Origin: Aliiglaciecola lipolytica
Lineage (GTDB): Bacteria > Pseudomonadota > Gammaproteobacteria > Enterobacterales > Alteromonadaceae
Length of the DNA: 54,688 nucleotides
Direction of reading: 5' to 3'
Assembly (NCBI RefSeq): GCF_018860635.1
Contig: NZ_JAHKPT010000002.1
Span: 1-54,688, forward strand
The position numbers were made by a program, and so were the translations under genes. The notes beneath the pieces are model-generated. The model ran no database searches, had not been told where the DNA came from, and saw nothing but the letters and a program-made list of their open reading frames with translations. Each line of letters opens with the position of its first letter. The first letter of the stretch is position 1. This document shows positions 25,774-42,684 of the stretch, piece after piece.

Positions 25774-27165
25774 TCAAATAATGATCGTTTGATCACCTAC
25801 ATTATTGATCGCTTCACTACCATCAGCCGTTATTAAGGTTAGATCTTCTAAGTGCGCAGACCCACCAATTCCAGCCTCTAGTAATGGACAATCGACACTA
25901 AGAATCATGCCTTTTTCTAACACAAGATTCTCATACTTTGCGCCTGGCATTTTACCCACATGATCTGTGTGATAAAGACCAACACTGTGCGGTGAAAATG
26001 ACACTCTGTAATCGCCACCTAACTTTTTCAACGTAGATTGGCCTAAGGCAGTGATATCTGAGAATTTCATCCCAGGTTTCATTGCATGCCTTACTTCGTC
26101 CCACGCCATGCCAATCGTCTTAGTGATTTTGGCCAGTTCTTTATTCGGTTCACCAATAAATACAGTGCGTCCATAATCACCATGATAACCATCTGCATGA
26201 CTAACCGCGTCAATTAAGAACGACTGACCATCTCTAAACGGTGCGTCAAATAAATCTGCACTCACACGGTCTATCACCATAAACTCGCCGGTGTTGCCGC
26301 GTTTAGCAGCCTCAGCATAGTAAATGCGCCTGAGGTCACGATAAGTAGCACCAGCTCGTATTGATTTAACCGCCGCAATAGCTGCTTCAGCGTTAGCTGG
26401 CGCTGCACGACGCATCAATTCAATTTCTACATCTGATTTATAGGGACGAATACGTCGCAATGCGTCATCTGCATCAACAATCGAAACATTGGGTAAAGCT
26501 GTTGATATTAATTCCCAAGATGCAGCGTTATCTGTCGCTATTCTCGCATTGGTTAGACCTAAATCGCTAAATGCCTTTTTAAATGCAGCTCGAGAACCAA
26601 CAAAAGCGCCATACTCTTTGGCTGTCTCCCGGGTACGATTCTCACGACTACTTTCAATCTCATCTAAACTGGTTAAATGCCGATCTGGGAATATCATCAA
26701 ATTGGCAGTTTGATTTGCAGATGGATCATTCTTATCTGTGCCTCGATGCCCACTATACATATAAGTCGAGAAGTCATCTGGAGCAATTACATCTGCTAAC
26801 TGGTAGTAGTATGTAAACGACGGCATAACTAAACCATTTGGCATATTGTCTTGACGGGTAATAATCGAAAATGAATTAGGACCATGTCCCATCGTTAAGG
26901 TAATTGGTCGATGCCCAGTTGAATAGTAAAAATTGACGCCTTGTCCGAGTACTAGGGCGTCAATATTCAACATATCCATGACTTTATAAGCTCTGGCTAA
27001 GTTGATTCGCGCGCCTGATAACGGTGGAGCAACAATAAAGTCATCAGTAAATGAACTGCTTTTTGCGCTGTCTGCGCTGCTAGCAGAGCTAGCAGCACAT
27101 CCAACTAATGGTAGAGCGGTAGCCATACCGACACCGGCCATAAACTCACGTCTATTTAACTTCAT
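25774..27165 (-). CDS. Tat-exported M24 family metallopeptidase-like lipoprotein
   Basis: A 463-aa protein with a twin-arginine signal (NRREFMAGVGMATALPLVGC) that also ends in a lipobox, so it is probably folded before export and then lipidated. The C-terminal pita-bread domain of the M24 family (Xaa-Pro peptidase/creatinase) is clear: LIDAVSHADGYHGDYGRT (D-x10-D), SPHSVGLYH (His) and HLEDLTL (Glu). The usual Glu of the IEPG motif is replaced, with SVDCP at that place, so metal binding or chemistry may differ. AGAGGG precedes the ATG at 27165. It lies 56 bp behind the TonB receptor gene, suggesting co-transcription and action on an imported compound. Confidence 0.82.
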   Translation of the reverse strand: MKLNRREFMAGVGMATALPLVGCAASSASSADSAKSSSFTDDFIVAPPLSGARINLARAYKVMDMLNIDALVLGQGVNFYYSTGHRPITLTMGHGPNSFSIITRQDNMPNGLVMPSFTYYYQLADVIAPDDFSTYMYSGHRGTDKNDPSANQTANLMIFPDRHLTSLDEIESSRENRTRETAKEYGAFVGSRAAFKKAFSDLGLTNARIATDNAASWELISTALPNVSIVDADDALRRIRPYKSDVEIELMRRAAPANAEAAIAAVKSIRAGATYRDLRRIYYAEAAKRGNTGEFMVIDRVSADLFDAPFRDGQSFLIDAVSHADGYHGDYGRTVFIGEPNKELAKITKTIGMAWDEVRHAMKPGMKFSDITALGQSTLKKLGGDYRVSFSPHSVGLYHTDHVGKMPGAKYENLVLEKGMILSVDCPLLEAGIGGSAHLEDLTLITADGSEAINNVGDQTIII

Positions 27166-27221
27166 TTTTCCCTCTGATTTAGAGTTTTTGAACATTCTTT
27201 AGCCTCATTCAAAGTTAATGT

Positions 27222-29723
27222 TTAAAACGCTAGTGATAACCTAACGCCTAGCTCTCTTGGCTGCATAGCAGTAACGTGCACAGCTCGGAGCGTATTTAAT
27301 GTTGAAATTTTAACAGGTACTTCACCGAAGAATGCTAAACCTGCGCCTGTTACCCAACCATCTTCGTCTAGTAAATTATCGGCATATAGCTCAATTGAAA
27401 GATCATCACGTGTGAAACCAACTTTTAAGTTCACATTTTGGTATGCGTCTACCCACGTTAGGTTATATGAATCAGTATAAGTTTTACCGTTATATAAAAT
27501 ATCTACACGTGTATACCAATCCCAGTCTGTTGCTAACTCTAAAGTATTGGTATAAGTACCAGATAGGCTACCACTCCATTTTGGGAAACGAGGAAGGGTA
27601 TTACCATCCACTTTAAATCCATCTGCTGTGGTTAAATTAAATAAAGGTGTAAGACCGGTTAATGAATAGTCTTCATATTTTGCATCGGTATAATTCGCGG
27701 TTAGCGAGATATCAAAGTTGTTGCTGACTACATAGCCACCTTCAAACTCTACCCCTTTAATTTTTGATTCTCCAGATACAAAACCACTTTGAAAGCCAGT
27801 AGCGCCAGGTGGCAAAAATGAGATACTTGATTTCATGTTTTCCCAGGTCATCGAATACAAAGCGGTTGAATAGCTTACTTTGCCATCCATTAACGCTTGT
27901 TTGACGCCAATTTCGTAACTATCTAGATATTCAGGCGGTACCTCATCTTGTAAACCAGGATTCTCTGCTTGCACTATGGCTTTATCTTCAGGATCTAAGG
28001 CAACAAAGGAACTGTTGAACTGACCCGGTAAGGTTCCTTTTGAATAACTTGCATACGTCATCATATTGTCAGTTGGGTTCCATTTGAAAATCGCACGAGG
28101 TAGGAACTCTGTTGATTCAAGCTCTCCGGTTGCAATTGGTTCGCCAAATGTGCCACCGAATCGTGTCACTGAATCGTTCTGCCAACGACCTTCAAGGGTT
28201 AATCCTAAATTTTCTGTAAAGTAGTAATCTACGGAACCAAATATTCCGATGGTATTGATTTCATCATCATTTGGAGTTGAGTTTTGTGCACCAACTATTC
28301 GCACCTCAAATGGCGTTTCAGCAGTATCGAACAAAATTGAATTGGTCGCTTCTACACCATTAGAAAATGCAGCATGGATTTTTTGTTTATAGTAATTGAC
28401 ACCCATTAAAGCTCTAAACTTTCCGCCAGCATCGTAGCTTAAGCGTATTTCACTTGAAAAGTCTTCAAAGAATGATGGCGTACCAACATACACAGATTCT
28501 CCGTCAGAATTATCACCGTCACGAATACCCATCAAATCTTGGTCGTTATAGGAAATGTTACCATCCAAATCAAACTCGTCATTTATGACATATTCGAAAC
28601 TAGCGGCAAGTCTAATCATTTGGCGACGTAATCCAAAATGGTCAAGGTAAGGGGCATCTTCGATATCCTGAACACCACGACTATTTCCTACCATTAAGTC
28701 TCGAACGTCTACCTCTGGCAAAAAGGCTCCACCATCTTCGAATATCGGAAAGGTGGTGTTACGAGAAACAACTACACCGTCAGAAATCTCAGGTAAAGCT
28801 CCACACCACAAGTTTCCACCCAAAGTTGTTTCAGTGGCAACACCATCTCCGTTAAGAACAGTTACAGGAGTACCGGCTTCACAGTTACTAAATTCACTAA
28901 ATTGAATCGCTGTGGCGGCAGGGGCGGTATCTTCATCTTCAACATAGGAAGCACGAAATTTAATTTTTAAATCTTCTGTTGGAGTATATAAAAGAGATAA
29001 ATGCGCAGCGTTAGTGGTTTGTTCCCCTAAAGTTCCGCCGTCATTTGCTGTGTAAGCGGATCCATTTTTAAAACCTGACCCGGTCAGACTTGCCGCTAAT
29101 ACATCTTCTATTATCGAACCGTTTATAGAAAATGAGATATTACTAGTACCGAAGTTCGGGCTATATGCCGCATTAAACTTACCACCAAATTCGCCTGACG
29201 GGTCTTTGGTAATATAGTTAATTGCACCACCAAATGTTGAACGACCAAAATATGCTGATTGTGGGCCACGAATAACCTCCACTCGCTCAATATCTTCAAA
29301 GCCTATGGATTGTGCGCCACCTAGTACATATACACCGTCGATAAAGAGTGAACCAACTTGATTAGATGGTAATGTGCTTTCAGAGGTAAGGCCTCGAAAG
29401 CGTATTGCCGGTAATAATCGTCCAGCAAATTGTCCGCCTTGATCTTTGAAATCTAATCCTGGCGCGAACAAGGTTAAATCTTCTAAGTTACCAATACCGG
29501 CCTTTTCAATATCTTCTGCAGAAAAAGATTGGACAGCTAATGGTACGTCGAGGATCCACTCATCGCGTTTTCGAGAAGATACGACGTCGATCCGTTCTAT
29601 ATCTGCATTCTCGTTTGCATCAGTTTTGTCTTGGGCATAGGCAGCAGAAAAAAAGTTATTATCTGATATGCTTGTCCCGCTCATATTCATCAAAACAAAG
29701 ACACTTAATAGTTTTTTGTTCAT
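27222..29723 (-). CDS. TonB-dependent outer-membrane receptor
   Basis: An 833-aa receptor: signal peptide ending AYA-Q near residue 30, a TonB-box-like segment (IERIDVVSSRKR), a plug domain (residues ~55-170, including VEVIRGPQSAYFGRSTFGGAINY) and a 22-strand-type barrel ending in Phe. It belongs to the broad Alteromonadales/sphingomonad type often labelled as a siderophore receptor, but the substrate cannot be read from sequence. AAGGAT precedes the ATG. It heads a minus-strand unit with the M24 lipoprotein, divergent from the regulator cluster. Confidence 0.92.
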   Translation of the reverse strand: MNKKLLSVFVLMNMSGTSISDNNFFSAAYAQDKTDANENADIERIDVVSSRKRDEWILDVPLAVQSFSAEDIEKAGIGNLEDLTLFAPGLDFKDQGGQFAGRLLPAIRFRGLTSESTLPSNQVGSLFIDGVYVLGGAQSIGFEDIERVEVIRGPQSAYFGRSTFGGAINYITKDPSGEFGGKFNAAYSPNFGTSNISFSINGSIIEDVLAASLTGSGFKNGSAYTANDGGTLGEQTTNAAHLSLLYTPTEDLKIKFRASYVEDEDTAPAATAIQFSEFSNCEAGTPVTVLNGDGVATETTLGGNLWCGALPEISDGVVVSRNTTFPIFEDGGAFLPEVDVRDLMVGNSRGVQDIEDAPYLDHFGLRRQMIRLAASFEYVINDEFDLDGNISYNDQDLMGIRDGDNSDGESVYVGTPSFFEDFSSEIRLSYDAGGKFRALMGVNYYKQKIHAAFSNGVEATNSILFDTAETPFEVRIVGAQNSTPNDDEINTIGIFGSVDYYFTENLGLTLEGRWQNDSVTRFGGTFGEPIATGELESTEFLPRAIFKWNPTDNMMTYASYSKGTLPGQFNSSFVALDPEDKAIVQAENPGLQDEVPPEYLDSYEIGVKQALMDGKVSYSTALYSMTWENMKSSISFLPPGATGFQSGFVSGESKIKGVEFEGGYVVSNNFDISLTANYTDAKYEDYSLTGLTPLFNLTTADGFKVDGNTLPRFPKWSGSLSGTYTNTLELATDWDWYTRVDILYNGKTYTDSYNLTWVDAYQNVNLKVGFTRDDLSIELYADNLLDEDGWVTGAGLAFFGEVPVKISTLNTLRAVHVTAMQPRELGVRLSLAF

Positions 29724-30079
29724 GGTTATCCTTTGATGTAATTAGTCTATTGATTGGCTGTGATGTTTCCACAAACAATATGTAGGATAAGCTGAATTTA
29801 GGTCTACTATGTTTTCGTAAAAGGTGGCTTTATTTCGTGAATACCATTCGCGCTTCGCGAATTGCAGACCAACTTTTTGTGTTAGTTGTGTGAAAAATGC
29901 AAACAATAATGTTATAAAGATATGATGATGGGTTTTATATTGCAAGGCTATTGTGCGTGATTGAGAAATCTGTGGTATTGCATCAAGGGATAAAATAGTT
30001 TCAGTAATAGGTAGTTATCAGTTAATCAAACTCGCATGAAACTAGGGAATTTACACTAGGGAATTAACAACATATTATT

Positions 30080-30112
30080 TTTCAAAGTGAACATAAATTG
30101 TTCACTATGAAA
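30080..30112. promoter_or_regulatory. Two phased operator boxes (candidate PrpR-like activator sites)
   Basis: Box 1 TTTCA-AAG-TGAAC (30080-30092) and box 2 GTTCA-CTA-TGAAA (30100-30112) are each near-palindromic. Their starts are exactly 20 bp apart, and together they form a 33-bp dyad with 12 of 13 arm positions matching. The same motif with the same 20-bp phasing occurs in front of the activator gene (31868-31934). The pair lies about 76 bp upstream of a sigma-54 promoter, a usual enhancer distance. Confidence 0.65.
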
Positions 30113-30186
30113 TATTGAGACTGAGCGGATATCGAATATTATTATTAACTTTTTGATTTTTAATTGATTTAAATAATTTTGGATTT

Positions 30187-30202
30187 TGGCATGAACAGTG
30201 CT
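30187..30202 (+). promoter_or_regulatory. Sigma-54 (-24/-12) promoter
   Basis: TGGCATG-AACA-GTGCT has the invariant GG-N10-GC of sigma-54 promoters (consensus TGGCACG-N4-TTGCW). It is almost identical to the element at 31995-32010. It points right; the start would be near 30213, leaving about 300 nt of leader before the LytTR gene. Confidence 0.65.
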
Positions 30203-30516
30203 TTGTTTGTTGTAGTAAATAAATTTACGAGATATTTGCGACAACTTACCTTCCTCTTGAAAAATGTAAATAGGGAAATTTTAGGCAATTGATCTTTAAA
30301 CACGGATGTCCATATTGTCGATATTTTTCAGTTAGATAATAGTTTTACATTGAAAACAAAATGAGAAAAAGTGGCATTAGATTGTGCCAATTAATCAGCA
30401 CTTATTCCGTGAGTGCTATTCGCGCAGCGCAAGTTGTTGCATTCAATTGTTTGTTTTATACATATTATAAAACGATGAATCTAGCTGTTTTATAATGATA
30501 AGGGCGCTGGGTACTA

Positions 30517-31419
30517 ATGATGTTTAAAAAAGTATGGCAATCTATTTCCTTGGCAATACAAGATCGAACAATTCTTTCGTTTTATATTGGTATTCCTTTG
30601 GGGTTAGGTTTGTTTTTTGCACTATCTCAATCTGGTACTGAACCCCTTGTTGGCATTGAAGGCCACTTAGTTTACTGGCTAGTTTCAACCCTTTTGTCAT
30701 GGCAGTTTTTAGCGATAGGTAGCAAATTGGTGGCTTTATTTTTAAAACCATTAGGAGCTCCCTTCTTAGCTGTTCTCACACTTGGATTTGCCATTGGTAT
30801 TGCTCTTTGGATTCCAGCTAGTCATTTTAGAGATTTTCTAGTGGGCGATTTTGTTCAAGAAGGACATGTTCTAAAAAGCACTTCTCGATATTTGGATATA
30901 GTCGTCACGATCTCCAATTGGTTACTTGGAGTTAGCTTATGGGTTGCTGCTAATTATTTTTATTTATTTGTACTGGGTGTCAGCAGATTTAATTATTCCG
31001 CGGACAGCTCGAAGGTAAAACGCTTTCGAAATTGGCTACTGAACACTGTTAATGATGAGCAAACTGATTTCATTATGGTCGATCAATTGCCCCGACTGCA
31101 AAGTCGACTGCCAGCCCCCCATCAGCAAAGAATTTTAGCCTTGATAGCAGAGGATCACTACACACGGGTGGTTCTGGGTTCAAAAGAAGAGCTAATTTAT
31201 ATTCGTTTTAAAGACGCAATTGGCGAAATGTTTGGGCAAGACGGATTTCAAACTCATCGCTCGTATTGGATTAGTTCTGACGCAGCAAGTAGCTATCGAG
31301 AACAAGGGCACAGCGCTTCGATAAAACTGTCTAACGGCAGAGTTATACCCGTTAGTCGATCATTCAGACATGCAGTTAAAGCAAGATTTGATACATCAGG
31401 GCACGCGCAATTTATTTGA
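30517..31419 (+). CDS. Membrane-bound LytTR-type transcriptional regulator
   Basis: A 300-aa protein with four hydrophobic segments (about residues 20-40, 50-75, 80-100 and 125-155) and a C-terminal LytTR DNA-binding domain. The domain covers about 200-295, with AEDHYTRVVLGSKEELIYIR, HRSYWIS and GRVIPVSRSF. It represents the one-component membrane LytTR regulators; the signal is unknown. The start is one of two adjacent ATG codons at 30517. A TATAAT lies 20 bp before it, and a sigma-54 promoter about 315 bp before it. It is followed by the VOC gene after 57 bp. Confidence 0.85.
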   Translation: MMFKKVWQSISLAIQDRTILSFYIGIPLGLGLFFALSQSGTEPLVGIEGHLVYWLVSTLLSWQFLAIGSKLVALFLKPLGAPFLAVLTLGFAIGIALWIPASHFRDFLVGDFVQEGHVLKSTSRYLDIVVTISNWLLGVSLWVAANYFYLFVLGVSRFNYSADSSKVKRFRNWLLNTVNDEQTDFIMVDQLPRLQSRLPAPHQQRILALIAEDHYTRVVLGSKEELIYIRFKDAIGEMFGQDGFQTHRSYWISSDAASSYREQGHSASIKLSNGRVIPVSRSFRHAVKARFDTSGHAQFI

Positions 31420-31476
31420 TAGACAATATTTTACTCAACGCTGCTTGCTTATAGCCGCTAATCAGGAGAGTACATT

Positions 31477-31866
31477 TTGATCACTCATATTCATCATATA
31501 AATTTTGTTGTCGCAGATTTAGACAAATCGGTTAGCTACTTCCAAACATTGTTAACTCAATCAGCGACGATTGAAGAATTACCTCAAAGGCTGGTTAAAA
31601 CAGCTCGCTTTAAGGTCGGTGAAAGCCTGTTGGTTTTGGTACAGCCTTTGAGCAACGAAGGGGTAGTGGCGGATATATTGGCAAACAAAGGTGAAGGTAT
31701 TTTTTTGCTTTCATTTGCCACAGAATCAATTGATGAGTCACTACAAAAACTCGAATTGAACAATCTGGAAAAAAGAACGGGTCTGCAACAATGGTCAATC
31801 TGCGATCTTGCAGATCATGATAAATTCGGGGCTATTTTACAATTGACTGAAACACCGAAAAGTTGA
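31477..31866 (+). CDS. VOC (glyoxalase/epimerase) family protein
   Basis: A 129-aa protein with the vicinal oxygen chelate fold in one chain. HIHHINFVVADLDKSVSYFQ starts the first beta-alpha-beta-beta-beta unit and DHDKFGAILQLTE closes the second. Possible metal ligands are His in HHINF and Glu near the end, as in methylmalonyl-CoA epimerase-type members. The enzyme activity is unknown; in this CoA-thioester cluster an epimerase role is conceivable. TTG (31477) is the start, with CAGGAG about 8 bases upstream. Confidence 0.8.
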   Translation: MITHIHHINFVVADLDKSVSYFQTLLTQSATIEELPQRLVKTARFKVGESLLVLVQPLSNEGVVADILANKGEGIFLLSFATESIDESLQKLELNNLEKRTGLQQWSICDLADHDKFGAILQLTETPKS

Positions 31867-31867
31867 A

Positions 31868-31934
31868 TTTCAAAATGAATGATTTTATTTCAAAGTGATA
31901 TTTTTTATTTCAATTTGAAATTTTCAACCTGAAA
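31868..31934. promoter_or_regulatory. Four phased TTTCA-N3-TGAAA boxes upstream of the activator gene
   Basis: The boxes are at 31868 (TTTCA-AAA-TGAAT), 31888 (TTTCA-AAG-TGATA), 31908 (TTTCA-ATT-TGAAA, perfect) and 31922 (TTTCA-ACC-TGAAA, perfect). The first three start exactly 20 bp apart, two helical turns. They begin just after the stop codon of the VOC gene and end about 60 bp before a sigma-54 promoter. They match the pair at 30080-30112, so they are probably sites for the PrpR-like activator. Confidence 0.7.
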
Positions 31935-31994
31935 GTGAAATTGGGTTTTAAATTAAAGTGTTGATATTTAAGGTTTTTTAAATTTCATTGTTTT

Positions 31995-32010
31995 TGGCAT
32001 GAACCGTGCT
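31995..32010 (+). promoter_or_regulatory. Sigma-54 (-24/-12) promoter of the activator operon
   Basis: TGGCATG-AACC-GTGCT has the GG-N10-GC spacing. Transcription would start near 32020, about 33 nt before the TTG start of the activator gene. It would drive the activator, the TonB receptor and the downstream enzymes. Confidence 0.7.
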
Positions 32011-32052
32011 ATGTTAATTTGCTAACAATTTTTACTTTCAGGTTGCAACAAA

Positions 32053-33927
32053 TTGATAAAGCAAAGTCAAAAAATTCGCATTCTAATCTTTGGCCATAAA
32101 GAATTTAGCCAGTTGGTTAGTAGTGTATTAGAAGAGTTTGAAGAGCATGCCGAATGCAAAGTCGTAGATGCGATTATTGGCACTATTCATGAAGCTAACA
32201 CTCATATTCATGTTTTCAAACCTGACTTAGTTATAAGTGCAGGCAGCAATTCGGCTTACTTAAAAACAACCTTAGATGTACCTGTCTTGTCTATCCCCGT
32301 GACAGAGTCAGATATCGTTAGTGCTGTTTTAAAAGCATCAAAGGTGAGTAAAGATATCCATCTTATTACCTACGATGACTACAGCAGTTTAGTTAGCCTG
32401 TTAAACACAAGCACTTCAATAAACATCACTCGTCATCAATACGAAACAGCTGAAGATGCTAAACAAATGTATCAATTGGCACATTTAACCTCCGATAATG
32501 TGGTGGTGGGTGCCAGTTTGGTATGTGGTTTGGCGTTATTAGACAACATTAAGTCATTCTTAATTTATTCTAAAGAATCCTGTCGTGCAGTCTTGAAAGA
32601 GGCGGTTATCCTTGGCCGCAAGCAACGGGATTCAATGCATGCAAAAGTTATTTATAAATGGTTAAGTGAAGACTCCAAAACCCCGATTTTAGTGGTGGAT
32701 AACTATACTGATGTTTTGACGTCCAATGCCATTGCAAAAACAGAATTTGCAATTGACTCGAATAACAAACAAGAGATTTCAGATTTGTTGCATAGCAGTC
32801 AATTTGCTGATGTGTCGGACGGTAAGTGTCGGTTAAATGAAACTGATTGGTGGTTTCATAAAGACACCATCATGATGACCAATAGTCAGTTTGATATCTA
32901 CCAATTTTATGCCCAAACACCGCAAATACTGTCACCTAAGAAAAACCAATCCCTTGAGCAACCGCTGATTTACAAATCCAAAGTGATGACGGATTTGATT
33001 GAACGAACTGACCTGTATGCGAATTCTCCCAGTCATGTGTTGATTATTGGAGAGTCCGGTACTGGTAAGGAAATGATAGCTAAGCGTATTCACCAGAAAA
33101 GTCAGTTTGCCGATGGACGTTTTGTCGCAATTAACTGCGCAGCAATGCCCAGTGAGTTGTTTGAAGGTGAGCTTTTTGGCTACGTGGAAGGCGCATTTAC
33201 CGGTTCTAAGCGCGGCGGCAAACACGGTTTGCTATATGAAGCGGAAAATGGCGTGTTATTTTTAGATGAGGTGGGTGAGTTAACCTTACCTCAACAAGCC
33301 AAATTACTGCGCGTTATTCAAGAAAAAACCTATCGGCCCATTGGCTCTCAAAAAGAATTTAAAGTTAACCTCAAAGTCATTGCTGCCACCAACCGACCTT
33401 TGGCCACACAAGTGAAACAAGGCTTATTCAGAGACGATTTATATTATCGCCTAAATGTTTTAAGCATCAATGTTCCCTCTTTAAAAGAACGTCGGGATGA
33501 TATTGAAAATATCACCAAAAATAAACTGACAACTCTTAATTTTGGTAGCTTGAGCGATGATGTTATTCAGCGCTTAACCCAGCAATTAACGCCCATCTTT
33601 ACCACTTATGATTGGCCAGGAAATATCCGAGAACTGGAAAATATTGTTGAGCGCTTATTAGTTTATTGCTCAGCATTTCAAGATGTGACCAGTAAGCGAG
33701 TGTCGCAATTATTGATTGAGCTAGCTCCCGAGCTATTTGAGCTAAGTGGGACCGAACAAACTGGCGCAATCGCAAAAAATGAGCAGGAATTGCTAAACCA
33801 GGCAATGATGAAATTTAACGGGAATAAGGAACTGGTTGCTCAGTACTTAGGAATTAGCCAAACCACCTTATGGCGAAGATTGAAACGCAATAATAAAAAT
33901 AACCAAGAGGGAACACAACATGCTTAG
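32053..33927 (+). CDS. PrpR-like sigma-54-dependent transcriptional activator
   Basis: A 624-aa enhancer-binding protein. Residues ~8-200 resemble the PrpR_N sensor domain (family of propionate catabolism activators that bind small acids). A linker leads to the AAA+ domain: Walker A GESGTGKE near 332, the sigma-54-contacting GAFTGS loop near 380, Walker B VLFLDEVGEL. A Fis-type HTH ends the protein (NKELVAQYLGISQTTLWRRL). There is no N-terminal ATG; TTG at 32053 gives a domain-consistent start. A sigma-54 promoter with four phased boxes lies just upstream, implying self-activation. Its 3' end overlaps the TonB receptor gene by 8 bp. Confidence 0.9.
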   Translation: MIKQSQKIRILIFGHKEFSQLVSSVLEEFEEHAECKVVDAIIGTIHEANTHIHVFKPDLVISAGSNSAYLKTTLDVPVLSIPVTESDIVSAVLKASKVSKDIHLITYDDYSSLVSLLNTSTSINITRHQYETAEDAKQMYQLAHLTSDNVVVGASLVCGLALLDNIKSFLIYSKESCRAVLKEAVILGRKQRDSMHAKVIYKWLSEDSKTPILVVDNYTDVLTSNAIAKTEFAIDSNNKQEISDLLHSSQFADVSDGKCRLNETDWWFHKDTIMMTNSQFDIYQFYAQTPQILSPKKNQSLEQPLIYKSKVMTDLIERTDLYANSPSHVLIIGESGTGKEMIAKRIHQKSQFADGRFVAINCAAMPSELFEGELFGYVEGAFTGSKRGGKHGLLYEAENGVLFLDEVGELTLPQQAKLLRVIQEKTYRPIGSQKEFKVNLKVIAATNRPLATQVKQGLFRDDLYYRLNVLSINVPSLKERRDDIENITKNKLTTLNFGSLSDDVIQRLTQQLTPIFTTYDWPGNIRELENIVERLLVYCSAFQDVTSKRVSQLLIELAPELFELSGTEQTGAIAKNEQELLNQAMMKFNGNKELVAQYLGISQTTLWRRLKRNNKNNQEGTQHA

Positions 33928-36496
33928 ATTTACCCGAAATAAGTTAGGTAATGCTATAGCGATATCAATGTTAGCAAGTTCAACTACTTTTGCCGGTGGT
34001 GCCCTTGCGCAAGATAGCCAAGCTGAAGAAGAGACTATTGAGTTAATCAGTATCTCGCGAAAACGTCCAGAGAGCTTACAACAAGTACCTATCGCTGTGA
34101 GTGCATTATCCGCCAGAGATATCGAAACTGCGGGGATCGAGCGTCCCGGTGATTTTATCTCGCTTGTGCCCAACGTGAATATTGTCGACACGGCAAACGT
34201 AGGTGACACACAGGTTAATATCCGCGGTATTGTCTCCACTCGAGATGCTGAATCAACCTTTGCTTACGTGGTAGATGGGGTGTTGATGACCAATCCAAAC
34301 GGCTTTAACGGAGAGCTGCTTGATATTGCCCAAATCGAAATTTTGAAAGGCCCACAAGGGGCATTGTATGGACGTAATGCGGTTGCTGGTGCGATTCTAG
34401 TCACCACCACTTTGCCTAGCGATGAGCTTGAAGGTAGCGTTAAAGTGGCGGTTGGTAATGCTGGCGCCCAGCGTATAAATGGTATTATTAGCGGTGGTCT
34501 AAGTGAAACAGTCAGAGGACGAATTACCGCCAGTTATAATACCATTGATGGCCATTACGAGAACATCTTCACCGGTGAAGACTCGGTAGATTTTCTAGAA
34601 GATACCACCCTTAAAGGGCGCTTAATGTGGGATGTGAGTGAAGATCTTACGCTTGATATGAGAGCCGGCGTTTCTAGTGTTAAAGGTGGTGCTATTAACT
34701 TTAATGCTGTGTTCGCTTTACCTTCATTTGTTGAGGCATTTAATCAGCCCGCCTACAATGCCGACGTTAATGATCATGACTTCATTTTTGCCTTCAACGT
34801 ACCAGGTGAAAACGAGCAAGACAGCACTGAACTTTCGATTAAAGCTGATTGGGATTTAGACGGTTACGATGTTACCGGTGTGTTGTCGTATAACGATCTT
34901 GAAGAAACATTATTATCAGATGGCACCAGCGCTTCCTTTTATGGCTATGAGTTAACACCTCAGTGTCAAACTGATCGTGCCACCCTGAATAACACGCCAA
35001 CTGCGTTAGGTGGTGCTGATAGAACCGATTTGTTTGGTGAATTTTTCGCACCCTTCGGCATCTTTCCTCCCGGCGTGGAATTCACTGGCGTGTATGGACC
35101 ATACACACCTAGTTCGTGTGATGGATACCAATATCAAGAACGCAGTCAATCCGATTTCAGTGGTGAGTTAAGAGTTACCTCTGATGACGACAGTGCTGAT
35201 TTACGCTGGATTGCCGGTCTGTATTTCGCTGAAATTGACCGTGATGTAGTGGTCGCCTATGGTGCTGATCAAGGCCAAGGGTTCTTGCGTCAATCCTATG
35301 TGCCTGCATCTGGGCCTAATCCGACCGATTTATTGTTCGATGATACTTATGACACATCGGTCTTGTCTGCGTTTGGTCAAGTGGAATATGATGTTTCCGA
35401 AAAACTAGAAGTATCTGTTGCCTTGCGTTACGACCATGAAGACAGAACAGTATCTAACAACGTGCCATATGTGACCGCGTCTGGCCTTAACATTAATACT
35501 ATTGTTGATGGCGAAGTTGGACTAATTAACCCTGGACTTGCTGGTAACCCAGATGGTATTCCAGACCGCAGTCGCTCATTTGCCCAATTCCAACCCAAAG
35601 TTACTTTAAGTTATGAATTATCCGATAACGTTAATTCGTATGCCAGTTACGGGGTCGGCTTCAGAAGTGGTGGTTTTAATTCACTGGGTACCCAAGCCAC
35701 TTTAGATTTTTGGTTCAACAGCTCAGGTACTGGTAATCCTGGTGATGCAGTGGATGCACAATTATTGGTAACGGATGATTACGATAAAGAAGTTACCACT
35801 AATATAGAGTTGGGCATCAAATCTAAATTGCTGGATAACAAGGTTCGCTTGAATGCAGCGGTGTTCAAAACCAACGTTGAAGACAATCAGTTTTTCGAGT
35901 TTTTCGCCGGACCTTTTGGTTTGTTGCGTGCTGTGAGTACTATTGATGAGCTTGAAATTCAAGGTTTTGAACTTGATGTAACCGCGGATATTACCGAGAG
36001 CTTTAAAGTGTTTGCAGGGCTTGGTTTACTTGATTCAGAAATCAAAGAAAACCGCAGTCGTCCAATCACTGTTGGCAACAAAGCGCCGCAGTCACCTGAT
36101 ACAACCTACACATTAGGCTTTAGCTATGAGAAGCCTATCAACGATGAGTTTTGGGTAACCACTCGAGTGGATTATCAATACACGGGTGAAACCTATTTCC
36201 ACACCTTACAAGGTGAAGAGACGCCTACAATTTGGGACTTTTTCGGCACCTTAGGTGGCGGTGTTCCACCGGGCCCTCATTCACAAAACTTCAATAATGC
36301 TAAACGTGATTCATTTTTCACTGTAAATGCGCGCATTGCTCTAGAAGCGGATAACTGGACACTAGCGATTTACGGCAAAAACATCACCGACGAAGAATAT
36401 TTACAAGAAGTCATTCCAGCACCTGAATTTGGCGGATCTTTTATCCACCCTTCAGCGCTTGCTGAGTATGGCGTTGAATTCGCTTATAACTTTTAA
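33920..36496 (+). CDS. TonB-dependent outer-membrane receptor
   Basis: An 858-aa receptor with a signal peptide ending ALA-Q (residue ~31), a TonB-box-like IELISISRKR, a plug with IEILKGPQGALYGRNAVAGAI, and a barrel ending FAYNF with terminal Phe. It is only distantly like the other receptor in this island. AAGAGGG precedes the ATG, and the gene overlaps the activator's end by 8 bp, so import and control are co-expressed. The substrate is unknown. A GGCAC-CCTACA-GTGCC hairpin lies in the 84 bp before the next gene and may adjust downstream expression. Confidence 0.92.
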   Translation: MLRFTRNKLGNAIAISMLASSTTFAGGALAQDSQAEEETIELISISRKRPESLQQVPIAVSALSARDIETAGIERPGDFISLVPNVNIVDTANVGDTQVNIRGIVSTRDAESTFAYVVDGVLMTNPNGFNGELLDIAQIEILKGPQGALYGRNAVAGAILVTTTLPSDELEGSVKVAVGNAGAQRINGIISGGLSETVRGRITASYNTIDGHYENIFTGEDSVDFLEDTTLKGRLMWDVSEDLTLDMRAGVSSVKGGAINFNAVFALPSFVEAFNQPAYNADVNDHDFIFAFNVPGENEQDSTELSIKADWDLDGYDVTGVLSYNDLEETLLSDGTSASFYGYELTPQCQTDRATLNNTPTALGGADRTDLFGEFFAPFGIFPPGVEFTGVYGPYTPSSCDGYQYQERSQSDFSGELRVTSDDDSADLRWIAGLYFAEIDRDVVVAYGADQGQGFLRQSYVPASGPNPTDLLFDDTYDTSVLSAFGQVEYDVSEKLEVSVALRYDHEDRTVSNNVPYVTASGLNINTIVDGEVGLINPGLAGNPDGIPDRSRSFAQFQPKVTLSYELSDNVNSYASYGVGFRSGGFNSLGTQATLDFWFNSSGTGNPGDAVDAQLLVTDDYDKEVTTNIELGIKSKLLDNKVRLNAAVFKTNVEDNQFFEFFAGPFGLLRAVSTIDELEIQGFELDVTADITESFKVFAGLGLLDSEIKENRSRPITVGNKAPQSPDTTYTLGFSYEKPINDEFWVTTRVDYQYTGETYFHTLQGEETPTIWDFFGTLGGGVPPGPHSQNFNNAKRDSFFTVNARIALEADNWTLAIYGKNITDEEYLQEVIPAPEFGGSFIHPSALAEYGVEFAYNF

Positions 36497-36580
36497 GCAC
36501 ATTTCAAGTGACGGGTGATGGCACCCTACAGTGCCGTGACTCGTCTACTTTCAGGACACAAAAATAAATTGGAGAAAAGA

Positions 36581-37795
36581 ATGAACAAGCCGCTTTCTGG
36601 TATACGTGTAATCGATCTAACACATATGTTATCAGGGCCGTATTGCGCTATGTTATTGGCTGATTTAGGTGCAGAAACGATTAAGGTCGAACCTCTACAA
36701 GGGGAAGGAACTCGCAAGCTATTAGCCAGCGATCCGAAAAATTCGTTAGATGGAATGGGGGCTTACTACATTACATTAAATCGCAATAAACAAAGTATTT
36801 GTATCGATTTGAAAAGTGAAGAAGGCAAACAAGTCTTTTATGAATTAGTGAAAGAGTCAGATGTTGTGGTGAACAACTTTGGCGCTGGCGTTCCTGACCG
36901 CCTGGGAATTGATTACAACACACTAAGTAAAATTAATCCTCGCATTATCACTTGTAGCATTACTGGCTTTGGTAGCAGCGGCCCTAAATTTAAACGTCCT
37001 GCTTTTGACCAAGTTGCTCAAGCTATGGGTGGCGGTATGTCAATCACTGGCACCGATCAGACAAACCCGGTAAGAGCTGGTATACCCATTGGCGACTTAG
37101 GCGGTGGCATGTTTGCGGTAATGGGAATTCAATCAGCCATTATTGAACGGGCAACTAGCGGCAAAGGGCAAGATGTGGATATTTCCATGCTGGATTGCCA
37201 AATTTCAATGCTTAATTACATGGCCACCATGCACTTTTTATCTGGTGAGAACCCATACCCAATTGGAAATTCGCATTTTGTTCATGTTCCTTACAATACC
37301 TTTCAAACCTCTGATGGTTTCGTGGTTATTGCAGTGATCACTGACAATTTCTGGAAAAACCTAAATGAAGTGGTTAAGTGCCCTGAGTTTGACGACAGCA
37401 AATATGACGGACAGCCAGGTCGATGGGCAGACAGAGACTTCATCAATGCAAAATTAAACGAGATTTTAAGTCAAAATACCTCGGCTTATTGGATTGAACA
37501 GTTGGAAGCCAAGCGTATTCCTTGTGCGCCAGTGAATAACTTGTCGCAAGCATTAAGCGATGAGCAAGTATTGCATCGCAACATGGTCGTTGAGTTAAAA
37601 CATCCTGATGGAAAAAGTACTAAAGGGCCGGGTAACCCTATCAAATTCTCACGTACTGATGAGGAGTCTTTTTCGCCTGCCCCTGTTCTTGGTCAAGATA
37701 CCCAGTCGGTTTTGACAGAGTTGCTGCATATGTCTCAAGAACGCATCGATTCACTTGTTCAAAGTGGTGCAATTAAAGGGGCTGGTAATGAGTAA
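36581..37795 (+). CDS. Class III (CaiB/BaiF family) CoA-transferase
   Basis: A 404-aa enzyme moving CoA between an acyl-CoA and a carboxylic acid. Family marks: GIRVIDLTHMLSGPYCAMLLADLGAE at the N-terminus and the GQDVDISMLD segment (about residues 196-205), which holds conserved Asp residues of the kind that form the mixed anhydride in this family. Length is normal. GGAG lies 7 bases before the ATG at 36581. An upstream in-frame ATG (36515) lacks a ribosome site. It overlaps the lyase gene by 8 bp, suggesting that the CoA ester it makes is the lyase substrate. Confidence 0.9.
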   Translation: MNKPLSGIRVIDLTHMLSGPYCAMLLADLGAETIKVEPLQGEGTRKLLASDPKNSLDGMGAYYITLNRNKQSICIDLKSEEGKQVFYELVKESDVVVNNFGAGVPDRLGIDYNTLSKINPRIITCSITGFGSSGPKFKRPAFDQVAQAMGGGMSITGTDQTNPVRAGIPIGDLGGGMFAVMGIQSAIIERATSGKGQDVDISMLDCQISMLNYMATMHFLSGENPYPIGNSHFVHVPYNTFQTSDGFVVIAVITDNFWKNLNEVVKCPEFDDSKYDGQPGRWADRDFINAKLNEILSQNTSAYWIEQLEAKRIPCAPVNNLSQALSDEQVLHRNMVVELKHPDGKSTKGPGNPIKFSRTDEESFSPAPVLGQDTQSVLTELLHMSQERIDSLVQSGAIKGAGNE

Positions 37796-38687
37796 TCGAG
37801 TCTACATTAACGATGTTGGCCCTCGTGATGGCATTCAAAACCAAGCCAAGGTGCTAACTCCGCAACAACGCTTGCAACTTATACAGGTTCTTACAGATGC
37901 GCGCCTAGATGGTGTTGAAGTGGGGGCGTTTGTATCGCCAAAAGCCGTACCAGCTATGGCTGGAACCGATGAAATCTGTCAACAACTGCCAAAAGCAGAT
38001 TGTCACTTTTCTGCGCTAATTCCCAATATGAAAGGGTTTGAGCTGGCGCAAAAAAATCAGATCAAATTGGCGTCCTTAGTAATGGCTGCTTCGAACACCA
38101 TGAACGAAAAAAATATTCGTATGGATAACCAGCAAACTCTGAGCATGATTGAGCAAGTTATCGAAGCAGGTAAAGGCACTGATGTTGAATTACAGGTTTA
38201 TTTAGCAACTGCTTGGGAATGTCCTTTTGAAGGCATTATTCCTGTTGAGCAAGTTATCGACTTAGCTGAAAAGTTAATCAATATGGGCGCGTCGCGCTTG
38301 GTTATTGCTGACACTATAGGTGCAGCGGATCCTCAAGGCGTTGTTGAATTGATGCTGCCACTTATTGAAAAGTTTGGTGAGGACAAAATAGCTTGCCATT
38401 TTCATGATACTCGCGCGATGGGCTTAGCTAATGTATACGCCGCTTTAACCGCAGGCGTAAGAAGATTTGACGCTTCAATTGCTGGTTTAGGTGGTTGTCC
38501 ATTCGCCCCCGGCGCCAGTGGTAATGTGGCAACAGAAGATGTGGTAATGATGTGTGAGCAAATGGGCTATGAGACAGGTATTGATATGCCAACCTTATTA
38601 GCTGCTTCAGATCTAGCCGTAGAGTTAACGGAAACCGCCAAAGGCGGTAATGCAAAGACGTGGTTGCGTAAAAAGCATCCTGCATAA
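37788..38687 (+). CDS. HMG-CoA lyase-like enzyme
   Basis: A 299-aa TIM-barrel enzyme of the HMGL-like family. The motifs are complete: NDVGPRDGIQN (catalytic Arg, metal Asp), CHFHDTRAMG (metal His pair) and GLGGCPFAPGASGNVATED (catalytic Cys loop). Members cleave 3-hydroxy-3-methylglutaryl-CoA or related branched 3-hydroxyacyl-CoA. The pairing with a CoA-transferase suggests it cleaves a non-standard acyl-CoA here (inference). AAAGGGG precedes the ATG at 37788, which lies inside the previous gene. Confidence 0.9.
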   Translation: MSNRVYINDVGPRDGIQNQAKVLTPQQRLQLIQVLTDARLDGVEVGAFVSPKAVPAMAGTDEICQQLPKADCHFSALIPNMKGFELAQKNQIKLASLVMAASNTMNEKNIRMDNQQTLSMIEQVIEAGKGTDVELQVYLATAWECPFEGIIPVEQVIDLAEKLINMGASRLVIADTIGAADPQGVVELMLPLIEKFGEDKIACHFHDTRAMGLANVYAALTAGVRRFDASIAGLGGCPFAPGASGNVATEDVVMMCEQMGYETGIDMPTLLAASDLAVELTETAKGGNAKTWLRKKHPA

Positions 38688-38748
38688 AAATAATAATAAA
38701 ACCTTAAATAAAAATATTTAAAACAAGAATTTGAAAAAGGAAAACGTT

Positions 38749-40821
38749 ATGAGTTATCGATTAGGTGTTGATGTAGGAGGTACTTTTACAGACCTTTTGC
38801 TAATCAACGAAAGCAACGGTGAAACTCACACTGCGAAAGTTCCCTCTACACCACATGATTCATCAGTTGGCGTATTAAACGGTATCGCTCGAATTTGTGA
38901 AGAATCCGGTATTGATCCTAAACAAATAAACCGTGTTATGCACGGTACTACGGTTGCAACCAATGCCGTTCTTACCGGTAAAGGTGCCAAAGTAGGTCTA
39001 GTCACAACCCGCGGATACAAGCAGGTATTGCAAGTTGCTCGATCTTTTTGTCCTGGCGGATTAGGTGGTTGGGTAAGCTTTGTTAAAAAACCATTATTAG
39101 CACCGTTAGAGCTGACTATTGAAGCAAATGAACGGATGGATGCTGATGGTTCAACTTCTGTTGAGTTGGATGAAAATGCATTACTTGAAGATTTACGTAA
39201 ACTAAAAGCTACTGGTGAAGTTGAAGCGCTTACCATTTGTTTTATTAACGCATACGTAAATGGTGACCACGAAAAACGCGCTAAAGAAATAGCCGCTACC
39301 GTGTTTACTGATGTTCCTATTAGTATTTCCAGTGATATCGTGCCAGAAATGCAAGAATATGAGCGTACAGAAACCACGGTCGTGAATTCTTACGTTAGAC
39401 CTGAAGTGGCTCGATATGTTGATAATTTGCAAGCTTCATTGCATAAAACCATGGGTGAAGATCTGCATTTATCGATTCTTCGTTCAGATGGTGGATTGGC
39501 CTCGGCTAATGCTGCTGCGGATAACCCAGTAAATCTATTGATGAGTGGCCCCGCTGGTGGTGTTTCAGGTGCTATTCACTTTGCCTCTGCAGCAGGTTAC
39601 GACAACATTCTGACCTTTGATATGGGCGGAACTTCAACGGATGTCGCGCTAATTCAAAACTCCAAAGCTCGAATTAGACGGGAAACACGAGTAGGTGATG
39701 TGGTTGTAAGAGCTCCTTCGGTTGATGTGCGTACGGTTGGTGCTGGGGGCGGCTCTTTAGCCTTTGTTCCTGAATTAACCAAAGCATTACGTGTAGGTCC
39801 AGAGTCTGCCGGTGCTAAACCAGGCCCTGCTGCTTATATGAAAGGCGGTGTGGAGCCAACAGTGTGTGATGCCAACGTAGTGCTGGGGTATTTGCCTTCT
39901 GACGTGCAACTTGGTGGAAAAATGGCAATTGATAAGTCCGCGGCTGTTGCAGCGGTTAAAAAAGTGGCTGATGCAATGGAGATATCTGTTGAAGAAGCCG
40001 CTGAAGGTATCATCCGCATTGCCAACGAAGCCATGTTCGGTGCGTTACGTTTAGTTTCGGTCGAGCAAGGTTTTGATCCAAGAGATTTCGCGCTAGTTGG
40101 CTTTGGTGGTGCCGGTCCCCTTCATGCTAACGCATTGGGCATTCTAACCGATTCTTGGCCAACCATTATTCCTCCTGGTCCAGGCGTATTATGTGCTTAC
40201 GGTGATGCCACTACAGTGGTAAAAGATGAAGCGTCAAAAACCTTTGTTACGCTTATTAAAGATACCGATAAGGCGTCATTAACAAAACTATTTGAAGAGT
40301 TAACCGATAAAGCCGCATCAACTCTGATTGCTGATGGTATTAGTAAAGACGAGTTAGACGTTACGTTGCAGGCTGATGTGCGCTATACCGGTCAAGCTTT
40401 CCAATTATCTATTGAATGTTCAAAAGCTGATTTCGAAGCTCAGGGTTTGAATCTATTAATCGACCGCTTTGACGAAGAACATACTCAATTGTTTACCTTT
40501 GCTCTTGATGATGGCCATGAAATTGTAATGGTAAGAGCTATAGTCTCGGCTTCTTCTACGGCGTTGCCTGAAAGTAAGCAGATTACAGGTACTACAGCAT
40601 TGGTGGATTGCAAAATTGCAGACACTAAGATTTATCATGATGGTCAATATCATGATGCGGCCATTTATGAACGTGCAAAGATGGGCGTAGGCCTAAAAGT
40701 GCCAGGACCTTGCATTGTAGGTGAAATGGATTCGACAACCGTGATTTTGCCTGGTTACGTTGCCACAGTAGATTCAGTTGGTAACTTGTTAATTAACCCT
40801 GTTAACACCAAGAATAAGTAG
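38749..40821 (+). CDS. Hydantoinase/oxoprolinase subunit A family protein
   Basis: A 690-aa protein of the HyuA family, also home to acetone and acetophenone carboxylase beta-type subunits. The actin-like ATP-binding motifs are clear (GVDVGGTFTDLLL, FDMGGTSTDVA), as is MHGTTVATNAVL. With HyuB it drives ATP-dependent hydrolysis of cyclic amides or carboxylation of ketones. Which one cannot be decided here; no third (gamma) carboxylase subunit is present. AAGGAAAA precedes the ATG at 38749. Only 12 bp separate it from the subunit B gene. Confidence 0.9.
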   Translation: MSYRLGVDVGGTFTDLLLINESNGETHTAKVPSTPHDSSVGVLNGIARICEESGIDPKQINRVMHGTTVATNAVLTGKGAKVGLVTTRGYKQVLQVARSFCPGGLGGWVSFVKKPLLAPLELTIEANERMDADGSTSVELDENALLEDLRKLKATGEVEALTICFINAYVNGDHEKRAKEIAATVFTDVPISISSDIVPEMQEYERTETTVVNSYVRPEVARYVDNLQASLHKTMGEDLHLSILRSDGGLASANAAADNPVNLLMSGPAGGVSGAIHFASAAGYDNILTFDMGGTSTDVALIQNSKARIRRETRVGDVVVRAPSVDVRTVGAGGGSLAFVPELTKALRVGPESAGAKPGPAAYMKGGVEPTVCDANVVLGYLPSDVQLGGKMAIDKSAAVAAVKKVADAMEISVEEAAEGIIRIANEAMFGALRLVSVEQGFDPRDFALVGFGGAGPLHANALGILTDSWPTIIPPGPGVLCAYGDATTVVKDEASKTFVTLIKDTDKASLTKLFEELTDKAASTLIADGISKDELDVTLQADVRYTGQAFQLSIECSKADFEAQGLNLLIDRFDEEHTQLFTFALDDGHEIVMVRAIVSASSTALPESKQITGTTALVDCKIADTKIYHDGQYHDAAIYERAKMGVGLKVPGPCIVGEMDSTTVILPGYVATVDSVGNLLINPVNTKNK

Positions 40822-40833
40822 TAGGAGTTTATC

Positions 40834-42684
40834 ATGAATAAAATTATTGAAACCAATAGCGCTCCTCTTAAACGTGTTGAAGCAGATACGGTTACCGTTG
40901 ATATTATTGAAAATGCATTGAAAAATGCCCGCGAAGAAATGGATGCAGTTTTATTTAGAACGGCAATGAGTCCAGGGATCCGCGAGCAAGGTGATTGCTT
41001 CCCTATGATCGCTAATAGAGATGGCAAGATGGTAGTAGGTCAGTTTGGCTCATTTATCCATGGATTTATGGAAGCCTTCACCGGTCAAATGGAAGAAGGA
41101 GATGTGTTACTCACCAATGATCCTTACATGTGTAACGCTGCCGTATCTCACTTACCTGATTGGTTAGTACTTGTGCCTATTTTCCGTGAAGGACGCCACA
41201 TAGCATGGTCTGCCATGTTTGGGCATATGTCCGATAACGGCGGTATGGTACCGGGTTCAATTCCAATTAAAGCCGAATCCATCTTCCAAGAAGGGATACG
41301 TATACCACCTACAAAACTGTATAAAAAAGGTGTGTTGCAAACCGATATACTTGAACTTATTTTGCATAATGTGCGTACCCCGCAATGGAACCGATTTGAT
41401 TTAAACGCGTTAGTAGCTGCCTGTAACACGGCATCAAAACGAGTGATTGAAATTGCCGACCGTTTTGGCGATGACGTGTTTTATTCCACTATGGAAGTGA
41501 TGTTAGAGCGCAACCATACTGCTATGTCTGCCATCATTAATATGTTGGTACCTGAAGAACCTCGTGTGTTTGAAGATTATTTATGTGATGACGGCGTGGG
41601 TAAAGGACCATATAAAATTCGTTGTAAAATGTGGCGTGAAGGTGACAAGGCTATATTTGATTTTGACGGTACTGATCCGCAAGCAAAAAGTTCGATTAAC
41701 TTCTATCTCAATGAAGATATGTTCAAAATGTTTTTCGGCTCATTCACCATTAACTTAGTGGATCCGCAAATATTGTTCAACGATGGTTTCTACGATCTTG
41801 TGGATGTGCGTATTCCTCAAGGTAGCTTGTTGAAACCTAATTATCCGGCAGCATTGTCGGGCAGAACCCATGCATTGGGCAGAATTTTTGATGTCATGGG
41901 CGGCTTGTTAGGACAGGGTGCACCTGAAGCGATGAATGCGGCGGGCTTTTCAGATTCTCCCCATTTATTTTATTCTGGTTACGATGATAAAGGCGAGTGG
42001 TTCCAACTGTTTCAAATTGGTTTTGGTGGTATTCCTGGACGCCCTGCCGGTGATGGCCCTGACGGTCATTCTTTATGGCCAGGCTTTACCAACGTGCCGA
42101 ATGAGTTCATTGAAGCGTATTTCCCATTGCGGGTAGAAGCATACGAAACCATACCTGATTCAGGTGGTGTAGGTCTGCATCGCGGTGGTAATGGATTATC
42201 AGTGGGTTATCGTTTCCTAAATGATGGCCAAATTGCAATTCATGATGATCGTTGGTTAACCTACCCTTGGGGTGTAAATGGCGGAGCGCCAGGTTTGCGC
42301 TCGACTAAGTTACTAAAACGCGCTGATGGTACAGAAGAAACCTTGCCAGCAAAATGTGAAGGTATTGAAGTGAAAAAAGGCGATATCCTTTACTTTAATA
42401 CATGGGGCGGCGGCGGTTGGGGAGACCCACTTCTTCGTGAACCACAGTTAGTGTTAGATGACATTAAGCGTTCACTGGCAACAGTACAAGGTGCTCTGGC
42501 TTATGGTGTTGTAATTAGTGATGATCTGACCATTGATGTTCAGGCTACAGCTGATTTACGCGCTAAAATGGCCGCAGAGCGTGGCGATGTGAATCTGTTT
42601 GATTTCGGTGGCGATATTGCCGATATTAAAGCTCGTAGTATGCAAGAAACCAACTTGCCTGCACCACAAACCCCTGAGTTTTAA
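40834..42684 (+). CDS. Hydantoinase/oxoprolinase subunit B family protein
   Basis: A 616-aa HyuB-family subunit. The N-terminal VDIIENALKNAREEMDAVLFRTA and the glycine-rich NTWGGGGWGDPL near the C-terminus are typical, and HRGGNGLSVGYRFLNDG belongs to the same fold. It is the catalytic partner of subunit A for ATP-dependent hydrolysis or carboxylation. It is the last gene of the operon. GGAG precedes the ATG, and a hairpin and a strong terminator follow the stop. Confidence 0.9.
   Translation: MNKIIETNSAPLKRVEADTVTVDIIENALKNAREEMDAVLFRTAMSPGIREQGDCFPMIANRDGKMVVGQFGSFIHGFMEAFTGQMEEGDVLLTNDPYMCNAAVSHLPDWLVLVPIFREGRHIAWSAMFGHMSDNGGMVPGSIPIKAESIFQEGIRIPPTKLYKKGVLQTDILELILHNVRTPQWNRFDLNALVAACNTASKRVIEIADRFGDDVFYSTMEVMLERNHTAMSAIINMLVPEEPRVFEDYLCDDGVGKGPYKIRCKMWREGDKAIFDFDGTDPQAKSSINFYLNEDMFKMFFGSFTINLVDPQILFNDGFYDLVDVRIPQGSLLKPNYPAALSGRTHALGRIFDVMGGLLGQGAPEAMNAAGFSDSPHLFYSGYDDKGEWFQLFQIGFGGIPGRPAGDGPDGHSLWPGFTNVPNEFIEAYFPLRVEAYETIPDSGGVGLHRGGNGLSVGYRFLNDGQIAIHDDRWLTYPWGVNGGAPGLRSTKLLKRADGTEETLPAKCEGIEVKKGDILYFNTWGGGGWGDPLLREPQLVLDDIKRSLATVQGALAYGVVISDDLTIDVQATADLRAKMAAERGDVNLFDFGGDIADIKARSMQETNLPAPQTPEF

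Follow-up and report, generated by a model that had tools for sequence, protein, structure and literature searches.

The locus considered here raises the question of which regulator commands an uncharacterised catabolic gene cluster, and through which DNA element. It lies on a 54,688-nt stretch of Aliiglaciecola lipolytica DNA (NZ_JAHKPT010000002.1, positions 1-54,688; contig C6 in the 5,028,687-base assembly), hereafter the window, in which short dyads of the form TTTCA-N3-TGAAA (boxes) are twice found upstream of a sigma-54 promoter, once before the gene for a LytTR-domain regulator and once before the gene for a PrpR-like sigma-54 activator (Table 1). A sequence-only reading had noted two boxes 20 bp apart at 30080-30112 before a promoter at 30187, and four boxes at 31868-31934, the first three at 20-bp steps, before a promoter at 31995 and directly before the activator gene. 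It had taken them for the signature of the activator's own regulon, with self-activation. All of these elements are present where that reading had placed them, and it is very probable, judging from their arrangement and conservation, that the boxes are the upstream activating sequences (UAS) of the PrpR-like activator, which would activate both its own operon and the LytTR/glyoxalase operon through sigma-54.

Boxes, promoters and activator in one genome

Sigma-54 promoters share a GG-N10-GC core within a TGGCAYR-N4-TTGCW-like context. Both promoters of the window contain the exact core and differ at one position from TGGCAYG-N4-TTGCW. To judge chance occurrence, dinucleotide shuffles were made of the two stretches concerned, 4,000 of 29725-30516 and 20,000 of 31867-32052, with mismatches counted per box. 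The single pair at 20 bp observed in the former was matched by none of its shuffles, while the two pairs observed in the latter arose in none of 20,000 and even one pair in only a single shuffle. A TGGCA-N7-TGC site by itself appeared in 55 and 56 shuffles of the two stretches, respectively. Across the whole window there are three 20-bp pairs with at most one mismatch per box, all of them here, and all three have a TGGCA-N7-TGC promoter downstream on the forward strand and none on the reverse strand.

The genome-wide scan for paired boxes with a downstream promoter that the sequence-only reading had suggested was run as a joint pattern, two boxes 19-21 bp apart followed by GGC-N8-TGC, and it recovered these two promoters only (three overlapping matches, with none for a reversed-pattern control). 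The same two promoters alone were returned when a single TTCA-N3-TGAA box was sought 65-95 bases 5' of TGGC-N8-TGC (three matches, and one for the reversed control). Furthermore, the genome contains 36 TGGCAYR-N5-TGC sites, and among the 30 inspected, these two alone are preceded, within 200 bp, by a box that departs from the motif at no more than one position. Matches elsewhere to the paired pattern itself (30 bp, one mismatch), at C35:167162 and C4:122200, were set aside, as neither has a GG-N10-GC within 250 bp; the remaining one-mismatch places in the genome were covered by the joint pattern alone. A plasmid collection searched with the operator region gave no match.

The activator combines a PrpR_N sensor domain (PF06506, 81.3 bits; 6.5e-14 to the solved propionate regulator chain 2pju_A), an AAA+ domain (PF00158, 212.8 bits) and a Fis-type helix-turn-helix (HTH; PF02954). 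Its AAA+ and HTH domains, together with the tandem sites upstream, place it among the bacterial enhancer-binding proteins (bEBP). Its Walker A and B motifs, GESGTGKE and LFLDE, are invariant in 20 aligned sequences, and the GAFTGA-type loop has the form G-[AS]-[FY]-TGS, in which G, T and G do not vary; the E. coli PrpR loop is also GAFTGS. Both the AAA+ and HTH parts match solved sigma-54 activators in sequence and in fold, and the fold search listed sigma-54 activators matched chiefly via the AAA+ part. A structure model has a mean predicted local distance difference test score of 77.6 and a predicted template modelling score of 0.50, so that its arrangement of the domains cannot be trusted. 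Its elements are an alpha/beta sensor, a long helix, strands near residues 212-287 whose pattern we read as PAS-like, an AAA+ core and the HTH. Profile searches found the activator to be the sole PrpR_N protein in the genome, and rpoN to be represented once (one Sigma54_DBD match, 237 bits). Against the PrpR equivalog TIGR02329, the activator scores 425.3 bits, below the cut-off of 499.2, and it is therefore termed PrpR-like instead of PrpR proper.

The recognition helix of the activator, GISQTTLWRRLK, differs from that of E. coli PrpR, GISRTTFWRRLK, at 2 of 12 positions. The 238-bp prpR-prpB region of E. coli contains five GTTTCA/TGAAAC hexamers, a number reached by none of 20,000 shuffles, and six TTTCA/TGAAA pentamers, reached by 25 of 20,000. 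The nearly matching helix and the E. coli hexamers together suggest that the half-site is probably common to the window boxes and the E. coli PrpR region, with a different arrangement in each.

Conservation among relatives

When 60 relatives were searched with the activator protein, 26 matches were obtained in 21 genomes, of which eight, the window's included, were near full length and the other 18 covered the AAA+ and HTH part only. A search of named genomes by N-terminal alignment yielded 19 loci, which belong to Aliiglaciecola, Glaciecola, Aestuariibacter, Paraglaciecola, Pseudocolwellia, Alteromonas, Rheinheimera and one uncultured member of the Alteromonadaceae. The window, G009, G030 and these 19 named loci make up 22 distinct activator loci, which extend down to about 41% identity (G003 and L095 are one locus, and G002, G003, G004, G022 and G025 recur among the named loci). 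The sequence-only reading had held that a lack of boxes upstream of orthologous clusters would speak against it; in all 22 loci, at least two boxes with at most two mismatches and a GG-N10-GC promoter stand 5' of the activator gene. The boxes are 18-21 bp apart in 21 of the 22. A strict scan was passed by 17 of the 19 named loci; in the other two the boxes are perfect and stand 18 bp (L110) or 29 bp (L108, from Rheinheimera) apart. From the last in-phase box to the TGG of the promoter, the distances fall into two tight classes, a short spacing of 86-90 bases in close relatives and a long one of 112-115 in distant ones.

In the window, seven related 20-kb loci, the E. coli prp region and two control stretches, paired boxes with a downstream promoter occur only before activator and LytTR genes. 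In 235,749 bases of the named loci, the LytTR gene of L095 is the one place other than the activator gene that they precede. A family-wide scan of 395 genomes with the joint pattern found 42 places in 36 genomes, versus one place for the reversed pattern. Thirty of these were inspected; 18 lie between glyoxalase and activator genes or before LytTR, and 12 lie elsewhere, with none of the cluster's genes nearby. With two in five unrelated, the pattern alone is not proof outside the context of the cluster. The other 12 places fell outside the inspected loci, and four of these are additional sites in the window, in G190 (another genome of this species) and in G003. The joint pattern missed G002, G025 and G030, although boxes are present there, because it fixes bases and spacings.

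That the arrangement occurs twice, as the sequence-only reading had stressed, is true of the window, but the LytTR copy is local: among the scanned genomes, it is present in the two of this species and in G003 only. The LytTR gene itself has a 71% identical counterpart in G003 and is seen near the second same-species copy (L069). The A1/A2 pair and its 20-bp spacing have been kept before the G003 LytTR gene, though much of the intergenic DNA around them has diverged, and the G003 promoter, TGGCACGAAGCCTGCA, lies 86 bases past the second box.

Sites for integration host factor (IHF) follow the consensus WATCAANNNNTTR, and each promoter of the window has an exact match at the same distance (Table 1), a shared position that favours a real IHF site. 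Eight of the nine short-spacing promoters have an IHF-like site with no or one mismatch 41 or 42 bases 5' of TGG, three of them exact; besides the site at 30146, one falls within a base of that position in seven of the eight others. Most of these nine promoters are orthologous. Exact sites number 3 among 22 promoters (shuffle mean 0.24, largest 2), and sites with at most one mismatch number 10 (mean 5.0, largest 11), which is not clearly beyond the shuffles. These sequence matches are thus suggestive only, and in a single clade.

Objections and competing explanations

Several observations weigh against assigning the boxes to the activator, or against parts of that assignment. Firstly, single boxes with at most two mismatches show no enrichment across the window (74, with a shuffle mean of 68.6), so that the claim rests on phased pairs plus a promoter, and a lone box means little. 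Secondly, B4 follows B3 by 14 and not 20 bp, which together with the 29-bp spacing in L108 indicates that a strict 20-bp step cannot be taken as a rule; certain conserved boxes are also weak, G009 and G003/L095 each having one box with two mismatches. Thirdly, if the start codon of the activator gene is taken mechanically as the first one, it falls upstream of the promoter in four of the 19 named loci (L102, L108, L111 and L113); each has a later in-frame ATG downstream of it, and the boxes are counted as preceding these genes because that later start is assumed. Fourthly, the LytTR promoter is separated from its gene by a leader of about 300 nt (30203-30516) that shows little conservation in G003. 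The idea that this interval holds a conserved leader or RNA was rejected, given that divergence and the lack of any match to Rfam families in the window at gathering cut-offs. Furthermore, an IHF-like site at the shared position is found in none of 13 long-spacing promoters and is absent from the G003 LytTR promoter, and paired boxes of the window's kind are lacking in the scanned E. coli prp region. Finally, sigma-70-like matches in the region number 5, versus 7.6 in shuffles, which leaves the first supply of activator unexplained.

By eye, four Alteromonas loci (L107, L109, L110 and L111) have in common a block, TACACTG...TACAGCCC, located 3' of the boxes and 5' of the sigma-54 promoter. This block might act as a sigma-70 promoter for basal activator supply, or be some other site.

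Binding near a regulator's own promoter often means autorepression, and the RefSeq record labels E. coli PrpR a dual regulator. It is therefore conceivable that the activator binds the boxes chiefly to repress its own gene, with the sigma-54 promoter serving the downstream operon only or being weak. This is quite improbable. Counted from the -24 element, the boxes of the window stand 61-127 bases upstream and do not cover it, and the sigma-70-like matches of the region (5, versus 7.6 in shuffles) are not above chance. The activator is the first gene after the promoter in all 22 loci, and the next gene overlaps it in four of eight loci (by 8 bases in the window) or starts 13-16 bases away in the other four, so that the promoter at 31995 should drive both, amounting to positive autoregulation.

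Alternatively, a different regulator might use the boxes as its operators, be it the LytTR protein or some general repressor that acts as a dimer. Short palindromes fit many regulators, and the LytTR gene does sit between the two box sets. Nevertheless, boxes and promoter persist in six of the 20-kb loci where no LytTR match was found near the cluster (G009, G022, G002, G004, G030 and G025). The PrpR-like activator adjoins the boxes in every one of the 22 loci, and their half-site matches the E. coli prpR-prpB region, which leaves such a role less probable still. Chance dyads in AT-rich intergenic DNA beside chance GG-N10-GC words would fit the shuffle-like frequency of single boxes, but are highly improbable given that shuffles fall short of the observed pairs, the arrangement is conserved in all 22 loci and the genome holds only two such sites under the patterns used. 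The self-activated regulon first proposed is well supported as far as sequence goes, both by the 22 loci and by the activator being the only PrpR_N protein of the genome.

Gene neighbourhood, proposed mechanism and known systems

In all seven related 20-kb loci, the gene order is the same: glyoxalase, operator-promoter, activator, TonB receptor, CaiB, HMG-CoA-lyase-like, HyuA and HyuB. The glyoxalase gene likewise precedes the operator in 18 of the 19 named loci.

Table 1. Operators, promoters, putative IHF sites and genes of the two predicted transcription units, in order of position in the window
Feature	Coordinates	Strand	Remarks
Operator box A1, TTTCAAAGTGAAC	30080..30092	+	1 mismatch
Operator box A2, GTTCACTATGAAA	30100..30112	+	1 mismatch; 20 bp past A1; 87 bp 5' of -24 element
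IHF-like site, AATCAAAAAGTTA	30146..30158	-	Exact to consensus WATCAANNNNTTR; 41 bases before TGG
Sigma-54 promoter before LytTR gene, TGGCATGAACAGTGCT	30187..30202	+	Exact GG-N10-GC
LytTR-domain regulator gene	30517..31419	+	LytTR at residues 204-291; domain search
Glyoxalase/VOC protein gene	31477..31866	+	Distant from methylmalonyl-CoA epimerase (45.8 bits, cut-off 115)
Operator box B1, TTTCAAAATGAAT	31868..31880	+	1 mismatch
Operator box B2, TTTCAAAGTGATA	31888..31900	+	1 mismatch; 20-bp step
Operator box B3, TTTCAATTTGAAA	31908..31920	+	0 mismatches; 20-bp step; 87 bp 5' of -24 element
Operator box B4, TTTCAACCTGAAA	31922..31934	+	0 mismatches; 14 bp past B3, outside 20-bp phase
IHF-like site, TATCAACACTTTA	31954..31966	-	Exact; 41 bases before TGG
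Sigma-54 promoter before activator gene, TGGCATGAACCGTGCT	31995..32010	+	Exact GG-N10-GC
PrpR-like sigma-54 activator (bEBP) gene, 624 aa	32053..33927	+	PrpR_N, AAA+ (GESGTGKE, GAFTGS), Fis-type HTH
TonB-dependent receptor gene	33920..36496	+	Start overlaps activator gene end
CaiB-type (family III) CoA-transferase gene	36515..37795	+	
HMG-CoA-lyase-like protein gene	37755..38687	+	NF004283, 318 bits, cut-off 246
HyuA-type hydantoinase/oxoprolinase subunit gene	38731..40821	+	
HyuB-type hydantoinase/oxoprolinase subunit gene	40834..42684	+	

No prp genes are found among the neighbours of the cluster (VOC, TonB receptor, CaiB, HMGL and HyuAB), and the rest of the genome was not searched for them. 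In some relatives, further genes follow HyuAB, namely an isochorismatase-family hydrolase (Pfam matches in L056 and L058; in L059 and L060 the family matches are weaker and fall under the cut-off) and hydratases of the LeuC/LeuD type (L060 and L061). Neither adjoins the operon of the window; the best isochorismatase match in its own genome is 39% identical, on C35, and the best LeuC match 67%, on C13, with copies of 56% and 48% on C35. The enzyme chemistry of the gene set suits the opening of a cyclic-imide ring, hydration and cleavage of the product. One could accordingly envisage a route for substituted maleimides, such as products of tetrapyrrole breakdown, in which the TonB receptor would import the substrate, HyuA/HyuB would open the ring, a substituted malate would be made by an amidase of the isochorismatase type and a hydratase of the LeuC/LeuD type (as in some relatives' clusters), CaiB and the HMG-CoA-lyase-like protein would cleave it, and PrpR_N would sense a tricarboxylic intermediate that resembles methylcitrate, for instance opened hematinic acid. 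We regard this tentative assignment as rather unlikely. In the searched listings of open-access literature, nothing on this cluster or on maleimide catabolism by these enzymes stood out.

Other features of the surroundings were also observed. A cluster at C35:158659-166416 (L153:8660-16417) encodes a PEP-mutase-family protein, two isochorismatases, LeuD/LeuC-like proteins, two polysaccharide-deacetylase-family proteins and a CaiB, and represents a possible route of the cyclic-imide or dimethylmalate type. After the operon in G003 there is a PEP-CTERM protein gene (L055:1651-2160, reverse strand), where the window has no open reading frame of at least 100 aa. Divergent from the LytTR gene, at 25774-29723 on the reverse strand, are genes for an M24 peptidase (83% identical over the part available in L095) and for another TonB receptor, which is 97% identical in G003; the LytTR protein may control both genes. 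A palindromic element, TTCGTGAA..ATTCGCGCT.CGCGAA, occurs at 29834-29861 (forward strand) and 46608-46635 (reverse strand); it appeared in none of 100 shuffles, and at up to two mismatches these are its only copies in the genome. A weaker stretch resembling it was seen by eye at about 30410-30437.

From the arrangement at the two promoters, we infer a mechanism in several steps. A metabolite would be bound by the PrpR_N sensor, perhaps also by the PAS-like segment, whereupon activator dimers on boxes two helical turns apart would assemble into an AAA+ ring. The DNA between boxes and promoter would bend, perhaps by means of IHF in this clade, and ATP hydrolysis would then open sigma-54 RNA polymerase at 31995 and 30187. 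From the former promoter, the activator would be expressed together with the TonB receptor, CoA-transferase, lyase and HyuAB genes, creating a positive feedback loop. From the latter, LytTR and glyoxalase would be expressed, as a regulon member so far of this species and G003 only.

The value of the locus lies in the combination of a defined operator code with an uncharacterised pathway under its control. Operator, spacing, promoter and cognate activator form a complete and testable regulatory unit for a cluster found in several marine genera, and the operator should allow members of the regulon to be found from sequence alone. Judging by the sensor domain, the inducer would be a carboxylic acid, a pointer that narrows the search for the substrate. 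The locus also adds a case in which PrpR-type half-sites form compact phased dyads and the activator is encoded inside its own sigma-54 operon.

When compared with known systems, the closest parallel is PrpR/prpBCDE of Escherichia coli and Salmonella, with which the present system shares the PrpR_N sensor, AAA+ domain, Fis-type HTH and a nearly identical recognition helix, as well as TTTCA/TGAAA half-sites 5' of a sigma-54 promoter. Unlike E. coli PrpR, the activator falls under the equivalog cut-off, carries about 100 additional residues that look PAS-like in the model, and is not divergently encoded but heads its own operon, in a cluster without prp genes. Its sites are compact 5-3-5 dyads, mostly at 18-21-bp steps, in contrast to the TGAAAC repeats of E. 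coli. The glnALG operon, which encodes NtrC, is an autogenous sigma-54 operon, and the two are alike in that an enhancer-binding protein is encoded within the operon activated via a sigma-54 promoter; the activator is unlike NtrC in being a ligand-sensing PrpR_N protein instead of a phosphorylated response regulator, and in heading a catabolic operon. For the prp system, IHF is reported as needed for prpB activation (PMC10101121); the open-access passages searched yielded no PrpR operator sequences. A likeness also exists to the sigma-54 activators of Clostridiales, among which, according to PMC6615313, PrpR_N domains are found and inverted-repeat UAS precede the sigma-54 promoters of metabolic operons. 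The UAS motif given there is TGT-N10-12-ACA, with half-sites 10-12 bp apart, a type rejected for the present locus by inspection, as the conserved boxes read TTTCA-N3-TGAAA. By its predicted features, then, the system is of a known kind, namely a sigma-54 catabolic operon under autogenous activation, here by a PrpR-like protein.

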